Positions 4,305 through 44,603 of a DNA stretch of 64,000 bases are shown in pieces. Each line of letters begins with the position of its first letter. The first letter of the stretch is position 1. Position numbers and translations under genes: made by a program. The DNA is taken from assembly GCA_002999035.1 (NCBI GenBank), contig CP027241.1:685001-749000 (forward strand). The letters are read 5' to 3'. A model generated the notes under the pieces. The model had not been told where the DNA came from, made no database searches, and saw nothing but the letters and a program-made list of their open reading frames with translations. The DNA is from Lachnospiraceae bacterium oral taxon 500. GTDB taxonomy: Bacteria; Bacillota; Clostridia; Lachnospirales; Vallitaleaceae.

Positions 4305-4745
4305 CCTTTCTTGTCACTTCATGTCCGCATTGAATACGAAAAACATCTCCATTCTATAATAATAAATAGTCCAAGAAATATTCTTCATTTCCGCCATGCC
4401 CAAGACGCCCAACTAAAAAATACAACTTTCTACAAATGACATTTCTAAAAGTCTTTGACAAAAAGGAAATACACCTTATGGCAAAGACGGCACGACTTAC
4501 CGGCCTGCCGCCTTTGCCGCTCTTTTTCTTTCCCCGGCTTTCTCACGGTCATCGAAGCATTTCATCAGACCGTTTTTAGGCTGATTGTCCGCCCAGTAAA
4601 AACGATTTTTTCACTCAAAACAAATCGCCCCCCCCCCGGCAGAAAACGGCTCTTTTAATCAAGAGCCCGCACGCACGGCAGAAACACATATTGCTTCAAT
4701 CATTGCAAAAACGCCAGCACTTCAGCTATGGGAAAGTTGAGTTTT
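4305..4745. other. 440-bp intergenic region with hairpins and a ten-base C/G run
   Basis: No convincing gene is visible. The stretch holds a hairpin at about 4571-4602 (arms CGTTTTTA and TAAAAACG) followed by T-rich DNA on the plus strand, a run of ten C at 4628-4637, a GGCTCTT/AAGAGCC hairpin at 4649-4668, and at 4728-4742 a copy of the 15-bp end ATGGGAAAGTTGAGT of the palindromic element at 43220-43372. It lies within cluster A, between the pilin-like gene and the three small membrane proteins. Confidence 0.7.
4649..4668 (-). terminator. Possible terminator after the pilin-like gene
   Basis: A perfect 7-bp stem, GGCTCTT and AAGAGCC, with a six-base loop. It lies about 80 bp past the stop of the gene at 4746-5228. 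On the minus strand the hairpin is followed by GTTTTCTG, a weak T run, so termination may be partial. Confidence 0.5.
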
Positions 4746-12076: not shown

Positions 12077-12274
12077 GAGGCCCGTCTCCTTTCATCCCTA
12101 TGTTTATCCAATCTCATTAAAAGTAACTTATCTTACTCAACTTTCCCCTGATTGAAAGCTTTGCTTGTTGCCCAGGTATCATTCAGTTACGCAAAAAGGA
12201 AAAGTTTTTTTGCAAACCCTAAATATCAAAATGCTCTGTTTGGCACAAGCTCTCAACTGACTTTACCAGCAGCT

Positions 12275-19012: not shown

Positions 19013-19223
19013 CCTGACGAAAACCCCGCTTTTTGCGCGGCTGAGCCAAGTAATTACTGCCGCCAAATAAAGAGCCGTTCTGACAAACTCAACAACTTTC
19101 CTGCGATGATCAGAACCGTCTTTTTCAGGCAGAACACCCGCCCGGACAAAAAGCAAATCTTTCAATCAGAGGAACGTTGAGTTGAGCAACAAATGAAAAA
19201 CAAAACTTTAAAAGGAGGTTTTT

Positions 19224-38698: not shown

Positions 38699-38876
38699 AA
38701 CTCAATTTTCCCATAGTCTTTTTTGGCACTATCCCGCTTGGAAAGCGGGTACATGGACTCACTCTCGCGAGTTGCTTCGCAAATCGCATTCCGTTCCTGC
38801 CCGCCGCCGAAAGGCGTAGCCTTTCTGGAAACAACGAGCCTAAAAAAGACTGTTCTGTCGAACATAGGAAAGTGGC
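38699..38876. mobile_element. Cloverleaf-type palindromic element, copy 2
   Basis: This copy of the element at 43220-43372 is diverged and enlarged by an extra AAAGGCGTAGCCTTT hairpin. The left end ACTCAATTTTCCCAT and the CCCGCTT/AAGCGGG and GCGAGTTGC/GCAAATCGC hairpins are kept; the right end is weaker. It lies between tadB and tadC. Confidence 0.75.
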
Positions 38877-42653: not shown

Positions 42654-43163
42654 CTAAAACCGTTTCACTGCCTTCAGTGCGTTATCATAATTCGGATGAT
42701 TGGCAACCTCTGATACGTATTCAACATAGCGAACAATACCCTCTTTGTCAATGCCGACAATCCCCCGGCTAAGCAGGCGCATTCCTTCCAGTTCAAAACC
42801 ATACTTATGGGCAAAATCCAAATCCCGATAATCCGACAGCATGATCAGATTTTTAATTCCCTCGGCGGCACAAAACCGTTTCTGGGCAAAAGGTAAATCC
42901 GCTGAAATCGTTAAAATCGCGATATCTCCAAGCTTATCCATTTCGGTATTAAAACGCTTCGTCTGCGCTTCACAGACCTCGGTATCAATCGACGGTACTA
43001 CGCTGATCAGTACGTTCTTACCTTTCAGATCCGATAAATGAAACTCGCTCAAATCGCCTTTAATCGCTTTAAAATCCGGTGCCTTATCGCCGACCTTTAC
43101 TTCCGCTCCCAGCAAAACCGCCGGCGTTCCGGCAAAAGTAACTACATTTGTTCTTCTTTCCAT
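42654..43163 (-). CDS. tpx: Thiol peroxidase
   Basis: A 169-residue atypical 2-Cys peroxiredoxin of normal length. The peroxidatic Cys lies in SVVPSIDTEVCEAQT near residue 60 and the resolving Cys in QKRFCAAEG near residue 94. DKAPDFKAIKGDLSEF is the usual N-terminal strand set. It reduces hydroperoxides using thioredoxin. The AAAGGATG site lies 14 bases before the ATG, rather far. It is flanked by repeat elements on both sides. Confidence 0.95.
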   Translation of the reverse strand: MERRTNVVTFAGTPAVLLGAEVKVGDKAPDFKAIKGDLSEFHLSDLKGKNVLISVVPSIDTEVCEAQTKRFNTEMDKLGDIAILTISADLPFAQKRFCAAEGIKNLIMLSDYRDLDFAHKYGFELEGMRLLSRGIVGIDKEGIVRYVEYVSEVANHPNYDNALKAVKRF

Positions 43164-43219
43164 TTCTTTGATATCATCCTTTCTTACCTAAGTTTTATCT
43201 CTGCACTGTTATCTCCATA

Positions 43220-43372
43220 ACTCAACTTTCCCATAGTCTTTTTTGACTCTATCCCGCTCGGAGAGCGGGTGCATGGACTCACTCTCGCGATTTGCTTTGC
43301 AAATCGCATTCCGTTCCTGTCCATGCAACGAGTCTAAAAAAGACTGTTCCGGCGAACATGGGAAAGTTGAGT
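43220..43372. mobile_element. 153-bp cloverleaf-type palindromic element, copy 1
   Basis: Perfect 15-bp ends, ACTCAACTTTCCCAT and ATGGGAAAGTTGAGT, are followed inward by AGTCTTTTTTGACTC pairing with GAGTCTAAAAAAGACT. Inside are CCCGCTC-GGA-GAGCGGG, the 9-bp pair TGCATGGAC/GTCCATGCA, and within it GCGATTTGC-TTT-GCAAATCGC. Single ends are also seen at 4728-4742 and 12133-12146. No gene is inside; the rest of the 395-bp tpx-lrgB gap is plain. Confidence 0.85.
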
Positions 43373-43558
43373 CCATAATATTTTGTCCCATCCGTTTTGT
43401 CTTTCTTTATTCACTGATGCAAACCGAACAGCCAAAAATACCTTTCTTATCAGCCGACATGATCGCCGCCGAAAATTATGCTTTCTCCTTTAGCCTTAGC
43501 TTACAGATTATTATACTTGATTTTTTTTAAAAATGGAATAAGTTTCTTTGTTTAGTAT

Positions 43559-44254
43559 TTACCGTAAAAATCCGGCAAACAAGCTGGCAAAGACAATTGT
43601 CATGATGCCGGCAATCGCCACCGACAAACTGCTCATCGCCCCTTCAATTTCGCCAATCTCCATCGCTTTGCTGGTGCCGATCACATGCGAGGCCGTCCCC
43701 AAAGCCAAACCAACCGAAATCGGATGCTTGATTTTAAACACCTTACAAATCCATTCTCCCAACACGCTGCCCAAAATTCCAGTAAGGACAATGGCCGTAA
43801 CCGTAATGGTCGAATTGCCGCCCAATTCTTCGCTTAAATCAATCCCAATCGCCGTGGTAATCGACTTGGGTAAAAAAGTCACATACTGCTGATGATTCAG
43901 CTTCATCACATAAGCCAGTGCCAAAATGCAAATGAGTCCCGACAATGTGCCGGAAAGAACCGCCAGCAAAATTGCCTTGTAATTTTTACGCAAATGATGA
44001 AACTGCCGGTACAACGGCAACGCCAGACAAATCGTAGCCGGTGTAATAAAATACGTTAAATACCTCGCTCCCCGGTCATACTGCTCATAGGAAATCCCGG
44101 TCAGGCGCAGGAATAAAATAATAAAAGCAATCGACAGCATCAGCGGATTGAGCAGCGGCGTATTCCAGCGCTGCCGGAGTTTCAGTGCTCCCCAGTAAGC
44201 CGCGACCGATAAAAAAGAGCCAAAAAACAGCGAATTTTTAAAAAGCTCATTCAT
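43559..44254 (-). CDS. lrgB: LrgB/CidB-family membrane protein
   Basis: A 231-residue protein with about seven helices. It has the family segments TPATICLALPLYRQF, FLPKSITTAIGIDLSEELGG and GLALGTASHVIGTSKAMEIGEIEGAMSSL. With LrgA it forms the antiholin-like pair thought to affect murein hydrolase export or, by newer work, pyruvate/glycolate transport. The start follows AAGGAGCAGG and overlaps lrgA by 8 bp. Confidence 0.93.
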   Translation of the reverse strand: MNELFKNSLFFGSFLSVAAYWGALKLRQRWNTPLLNPLMLSIAFIILFLRLTGISYEQYDRGARYLTYFITPATICLALPLYRQFHHLRKNYKAILLAVLSGTLSGLICILALAYVMKLNHQQYVTFLPKSITTAIGIDLSEELGGNSTITVTAIVLTGILGSVLGEWICKVFKIKHPISVGLALGTASHVIGTSKAMEIGEIEGAMSSLSVAIAGIMTIVFASLFAGFLR

Positions 44255-44603
44255 TGCCCTGCTCCTTTGTCAAAATCAGATCGGCTACCTTGCCGGTCAC
44301 TACCGTTACTACAACCGTACTGATAAAAATCAGCGCCAATGCTTCCAGCAGAATCGACTTAACCTCGTCAAAAATATTCATCAGATTAACTCCCGGTGCG
44401 ATAAACAGCACCGGCAGGCAAACCAGCAAAAAATCTCCGGCTCCTTCTACTCTTTCCGGTTTTAACACACCGGTCTGCAAAGCCAGAAATAAAATCACCA
44501 GCCCATAAACGCTTGCCGGTACCGGCAAGCCCAGCAACCGGTACAGCAGTTCAGAAACAAAAGTAATACCTAAAATAACTCCTAATTGTTTTAATTTTTC
44601 CAT
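44247..44603 (-). CDS. lrgA: LrgA/CidA-family holin-like protein
   Basis: A 118-residue protein with four helices. It carries the family pattern LGVILGITFVSELLYRLLGLPVPASVYGLVILF and FLLVCLPVLFIAPGVNLM. The ribosome site is poor (GAGAG). It overlaps lrgB. A lytSR-type regulator pair is not adjacent; the nearest two-component system is 0.6 kb upstream and of OmpR type. Confidence 0.92.
   Translation of the reverse strand: MEKLKQLGVILGITFVSELLYRLLGLPVPASVYGLVILFLALQTGVLKPERVEGAGDFLLVCLPVLFIAPGVNLMNIFDEVKSILLEALALIFISTVVVTVVTGKVADLILTKEQGNE

Follow-up and report, generated by a model that had tools for sequence, protein, structure and literature searches.

BOX elements of Streptococcus pneumoniae have the arrangement boxA-boxB(n)-boxC (PMC3049150). 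They are short, intergenic repeats of about 100 copies with terminal inverted repeats and target duplications (PMC3049150), in which two fixed end modules surround variable hairpin modules, the predicted fold is strong, and nesting is frequent. The family described here, represented by a full-length copy in a 64-kb window (the whole stretch of DNA that was analyzed), resembles BOX in each of these respects, and its two end modules likewise enclose variable numbers of ~45-bp units (0-4 in tandem). Its host differs, being a genus of Clostridia close to oral taxon COT-073, and so do its terminal inverted repeat sequence (ACTCAACTTTCCCAY) and its modules; the likeness to BOX is one of architecture rather than of a match to BOX models. 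The family is also unlike BOX in having a clear 5-bp TAWTA duplication and ends in common with an IS4-type transposase.

Other small folded interspersed repeats, including bcr1, RUP and Correia/NEMIS, differ from this family in both sequence and host. RUP and Correia are described together with BOX (PMC3049150). A MITE of Porphyromonas gingivalis with an internal minisatellite, from a different phylum, similarly carries tandem repeat units, as far as the description in PMC4596501 goes. Finally, IS4-type elements matching model NF049925, which lie near IS701, ISH3 and IS1634 (PMC2266710), occur within this family and order and share their 14-bp ends with the MITE. Unlike the MITE, these elements code for a transposase (model length 449 aa) and are 1.0-1.8 kb long in their damaged copies; by eye, the likeness is confined to the ends.

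We estimate a probability of roughly 90% that the element in the window is a non-autonomous MITE, mobilized in trans by an IS4-type (NF049925) transposase, that is built from modular palindromes and shows covariation without a selected RNA.

Architecture of the element

The initial annotation described a 153-bp element with perfect 15-bp ends and nested stems, which we find exactly at positions 43220-43372. In the predicted fold, the perfect 15-bp ends enclose three hairpins as well as a nested stem; the minimum free energy is -77.8 kcal/mol compared to a shuffle mean of -37.7 (z -10.6). The features of this copy are as follows.

43220-43372, plus strand: full-length MITE, 153 bp, no gene (from fold, ends and genome copies)
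43215-43219, no strand: left target-site duplication CCATA (from the sequence and the family-wide duplication test)
43373-43377, no strand: right target-site duplication CCATA (same basis)
43220-43234, plus strand: A-type terminal inverted repeat, ACTCAACTTTCCCAT and next AGTCTTTTTT (IS4-type elements of relatives bear these ends too)
43358-43372, minus strand: terminal inverted repeat, C-type end (from fold and end scan)
43235-43244, plus strand: 5' arm of the second stem, AGTCTTTTTT, partner 43336-43345 (from fold and covariation alignment)
43336-43345, plus strand: 3' arm of the second stem, AAAAAAGACT (same basis)
43253-43269, plus strand: hairpin module CCCGCTC-GGA-GAGCGGG, site of the reported compensatory change
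43270-43327, plus strand: central module, stem TGCATGGAC/GTCCATGCA around hairpin GCGATTTGC-TTT-GCAAATCGC, replaced by other modules elsewhere
43346-43357, plus strand: small hairpin GTTC-CGGC-GAAC, adjoining the right end

Copy number and target sites

The family is a small, non-coding transposon with some 70 copies or more. The 3.2-Mb, one-contig genome contains 136 ends with one mismatch or fewer (a reversed-pattern control gave 2) and at least 49 stretches that match the element. Two congeners have 232 and 55 such ends, and controls gave 0-2 across genomes. One copy (G000:C1:1003112-1003264) is 100% identical to that in the window and another (749379-749531) is 99% identical. Copies that are identical over 153 bp sit hundreds of kb apart, and such identity implies recent movement. 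Among 60 genomes searched, the full-length sequence matches only this genus. A 25-bp pattern of the end is also found in a Eubacteriales MAG and in a Clostridia genome of COT-073. The family had no match among viral contigs, phages or plasmids. Members range from about 70 to 280 bp in length. Among the ends listed for this genus, all pairs are less than 320 bp apart and none encloses a transposase; the listing covered 100 of the 136 ends of this genome and a part of those in G001.

Exact 5-bp target duplications flank 59 of the 95 copies that retain both ends, where re-paired flanks predict 1.8, and other repeat lengths outside the ends of these 95 copies occur at or near background. The duplication consensus is TAWTA; that of the window copy is CCATA. 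Because the 5-bp duplications, the TAWTA consensus and the identical dispersed copies occur together, we regard the family as a DNA transposon derivative. The terminal inverted repeats, the duplication of fixed length and the short multicopy form without a transposase are those of a MITE, and ends common to an autonomous element are found in other genera, with none in its own genome. The element is a modular MITE, ordinary in kind and new as a family member. The earlier opinion that it is "not just a dead transposon" is half right: it derives from a transposon, and it has both clean duplications and matching relatives that bear a transposase.

In three places (L151:19044-19523, L146:18002-18347 and L034:1429-1655), neighboring elements have a single 5-bp duplication between them, which suggests that an element's own target duplication has repeatedly been used as an insertion site.

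Four additional copies or remnants are present in the window.

38700-38873, plus strand: damaged second copy, right end cut, with an extra module ending TTTCTGGAA
4730-4742, minus strand: right end of a decayed composite copy, with degenerate hairpin units upstream at about 4575-4690
12135-12147, plus strand: left end, then the remnant of a ~43-bp hairpin unit; the other end is lost
about 19087-19182, minus strand: short copy (~95 bp), degenerate, containing a single hairpin unit

The damaged copy is followed by two ~42-bp hairpin units that reach about 38950. Two lone ends had been noted previously and are located at 4730-4742 and 12135-12147, where they are remnants of composite copies rather than chance matches. 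The short copy at about 19087-19182 was absent from the initial annotation.

A candidate partner transposase

Beyond this genus, the same 14-bp end is found in further genera of the family and also in a different family of the order. In other genera it bounds 154-bp miniature elements that have an unrelated AT-rich interior and 5-bp duplications (7 of 11 exact). It also accompanies transposase genes: an end with one mismatch or fewer is present at 8 of 11 matching transposase loci, and in four genera across the family and order (G018, G019, G009 and G006) the reading frame continues straight into it. Both ends frame transposase-bearing elements of 1.0-1.8 kb in damaged copies, two of them interrupted (L211, 1290 bp; L243, 1812 bp) and one decayed (L232, 1027 bp). 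The L211 element is flanked by TAGTA/TAATA, an AT-rich site like that of the MITE. By eye, only the ~14-bp end matches between the MITE and these larger elements. The sequences that break L211:1058-2347 and L243:990-2801 are of IS3-type and IS30-type transposases, with an IS30-type gene in L243.

The transposases match NCBIfam model NF049925 (IS4 family transposase, E 1.5e-52), with IS701-type models next. According to a survey of the IS4 family, IS4 itself duplicates about 10 bp of its target, and IS701, ISH3 and IS1634 duplicate about 5 bp (PMC2266710). The 5-bp duplication of the MITE therefore fits the IS701/ISH3/IS1634 side of these related families. Judging from the identical ends in relatives, the 14-15-bp ends of the MITE would be recognized in trans by a DDE transposase of the NF049925 subgroup, which would move the element to AT-rich TAWTA sites and duplicate 5 bp, in keeping with the observed ends and duplications.

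The search for a transposase with matching ends that the initial annotation had proposed thus succeeded in relatives, on NF049925-type elements, and not in the element's own genome. A protein search found no NF049925-type transposase in this genome or in its two congeners (G000, G001 and G002). The partner may have been lost, may be encoded by a replicon outside the sample, or may have diverged beyond the reach of a protein search; its absence is unexplained given the near-identical copies.

Several other transposases were rejected as movers. The DDE_Tnp_1 and rve transposases of the same three genomes lack these ends, L181 is a decayed fragment next to a broken MITE end, and Y1 transposases are present in this genome only as fragments. 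The transposase type at L178 and L180 of this genome belongs to a different IS4-type element with ends CTTGAGTTTCCGCA instead. These ends have TTTCC.CA in common with the MITE end, and on this resemblance the element is a possible, more distant mover.

Exchangeable hairpin modules

Family members have two kinds of ends: the A-type is followed by AGTCTTTTTT, and the C-type lies beside the GTTC/GAAC hairpin. Between them are exchangeable palindromic modules, namely the CCCGCTC hairpin, the central stem, a TTCCAG..GGCGGGC module, and a ~43-bp unit of two hairpins that is present in 0-4 tandem copies inside frames. A further unit, GTGCCGCGAAAGCC..GGCGAAAGCGG, is found in elements of the congener G001. 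These hairpin cassettes are gained, swapped and tandemly repeated between copies, variation that might be produced by recombination or slippage. With its defined 5-bp target and candidate partner transposase, the family is a clear example of the modular, BOX-like design beyond the streptococci.

A second type of hairpin unit is seen in G001 copies (L132:1501-1777, L154:849-1040 and others), in which the internal loop is symmetric and reads GAAA/GAAA on one and the same strand. An inverted repeat would not give such a loop, and we have no explanation for it.

The number of ~43-bp units, about 90-105 in this genome, raises the question of whether they are REP-like sequences, mobilized in the form of single-stranded hairpins by a transposase of the Y1 type (RAYT or IS200/IS605). 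The units occupy a few fixed points of the frame, no target duplication is visible by eye around them, and between unit types the two arms of the hairpins covary. However, nearly all lie inside or beside MITE frames, such that spread with the MITE plus recombination suffices, and the only Y1 matches in this genome are two IS200-type fragments that have no unit beside them. We therefore find a REP-like origin distinctly improbable. A CRISPR-like array with repeat CATCATTCTAAATTAACAAAGCTCTCAAAC (L106, G000:C1 at about 672 kb, outside the window) directly adjoins an IS200-type transposase fragment.

Covariation of the stems

The initial annotation reported that CCCGCTC/GAGCGGG has become CCCGCTT/AAGCGGG in the copy at 38700-38873, and took this to indicate selection on structure. 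The change is genuine, but this copy is damaged and folds poorly (z -2.95). Its right end stops at GAAAGT, and another module takes the place of the partner in the central TGCATGG/CCATGCA stem.

The proposed check of covariation across copies did reveal an excess over shuffles. Three species contributed 13 full-length copies, in which pairing is kept in 98.3% of cells and double changes occur at 9 of 51 pairs (25 cells). This level of covariation was reached by 0 of 500 column shuffles, although relatedness inflates such a test. Several of the nine double-changed pairs are single subfamily differences. Within genomes, the frame stems have 8 double changes compared to 3.7 expected by independence, and one-sided changes are abundant. 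The arms of the ~43-bp units also covary between unit types (AGTGC/GCACT, ACGC/GCGT and AGC/GCT), with 220 of 243 pairs formed versus a shuffle mean of 210.5 and maximum of 220.

A structured RNA that folds in operon transcripts to stop, slow or stabilize the transcript, with selection keeping the stems, might account for the strong fold of 43220-43372, for covariation across subfamilies beyond shuffles, and for the intergenic location near stop codons with an antisense bias (40 to 17, p 0.003; see below). A selected RNA, or a single folded strand, should favor G-U over A-C on its strand. Such strand-specific, wobble-tolerant covariation was not found. For the CCCGCTC hairpin, the scan gave about 90 matches, a few of which are spurious (35 from this genome, 55 from relatives). 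They include 3 double changes versus more than 30 one-sided or mismatched pairs, and the deviations are 15 G-T and 16 A-C cells plus other mismatches. Counts are 39 G-T versus 48 A-C for all frame stems (p 0.39) and 12 versus 16 for the ~43-bp units. With G-T and A-C deviations at equal frequency, an RNA-strand signature is absent. Moreover, modules are freely swapped, and the copy with the cited compensation lacks the central stem. No Rfam family reached its gathering score within the 64-kb window, and a consensus terminator scan did not call the element. Thus, the compensatory changes themselves are real, whereas the claim that compensatory change reveals a selected RNA structure is not supported, and we consider an RNA of this kind unlikely.

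Selection might instead act on a folded DNA strand needed for transposition, which would explain why stems are kept in all subfamilies while loops vary. Yet some copies with target duplications, such as the 95-103-bp forms, have lost their internal hairpins or carry others instead, and the ends on which such DDE transposases act are duplex. This explanation is likewise doubtful.

Template switching can produce a compensatory double change in one event (PMC8794818). Double changes without wobble bias would be expected from template switching between arms or from recombination among copies. By either route both arms of a DNA palindrome might be altered together and so stay matched, and the covariation would need no selected RNA function. 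The data do not separate the two routes and are also compatible with a DNA fold under weak selection. On their own, compensatory changes in repeated palindromes do not show a functional RNA, and comparing G-T with A-C deviations across copies offers a simple control for such claims.

Genomic context and orientation

By a simple ORF-based gene call, the copies are mostly intergenic, and 21 of 57 copies in tandem gene pairs lie 15 bp or less from the upstream stop codon. As a MITE, the element would be tolerated between genes, often just 3' of stop codons. Orientation in tandem gene pairs is 40 antisense versus 17 sense (p 0.003, from rough gene calls and a post hoc test), which hints that transcribed copies are not neutral. 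Pure neutrality does not predict this bias, which thus counts against the MITE reading, and we treat it as a lead only. If the family were a transcribed regulatory element, whose hairpin cassettes near the ends of operon genes tune read-through or stability, both the bias and the placement after stop codons would be explained; we think this improbable. The transcript of an antisense-oriented copy starts with the small GUUC/GAAC hairpin, followed by UUUUUU.

The window copy lies between a thiol peroxidase gene (42654-43163, minus strand) and lrgB (43559-44254, minus strand; LrgAB). With lrgA at 44247-44603, the element may affect read-through from lrgAB into the thiol peroxidase gene.
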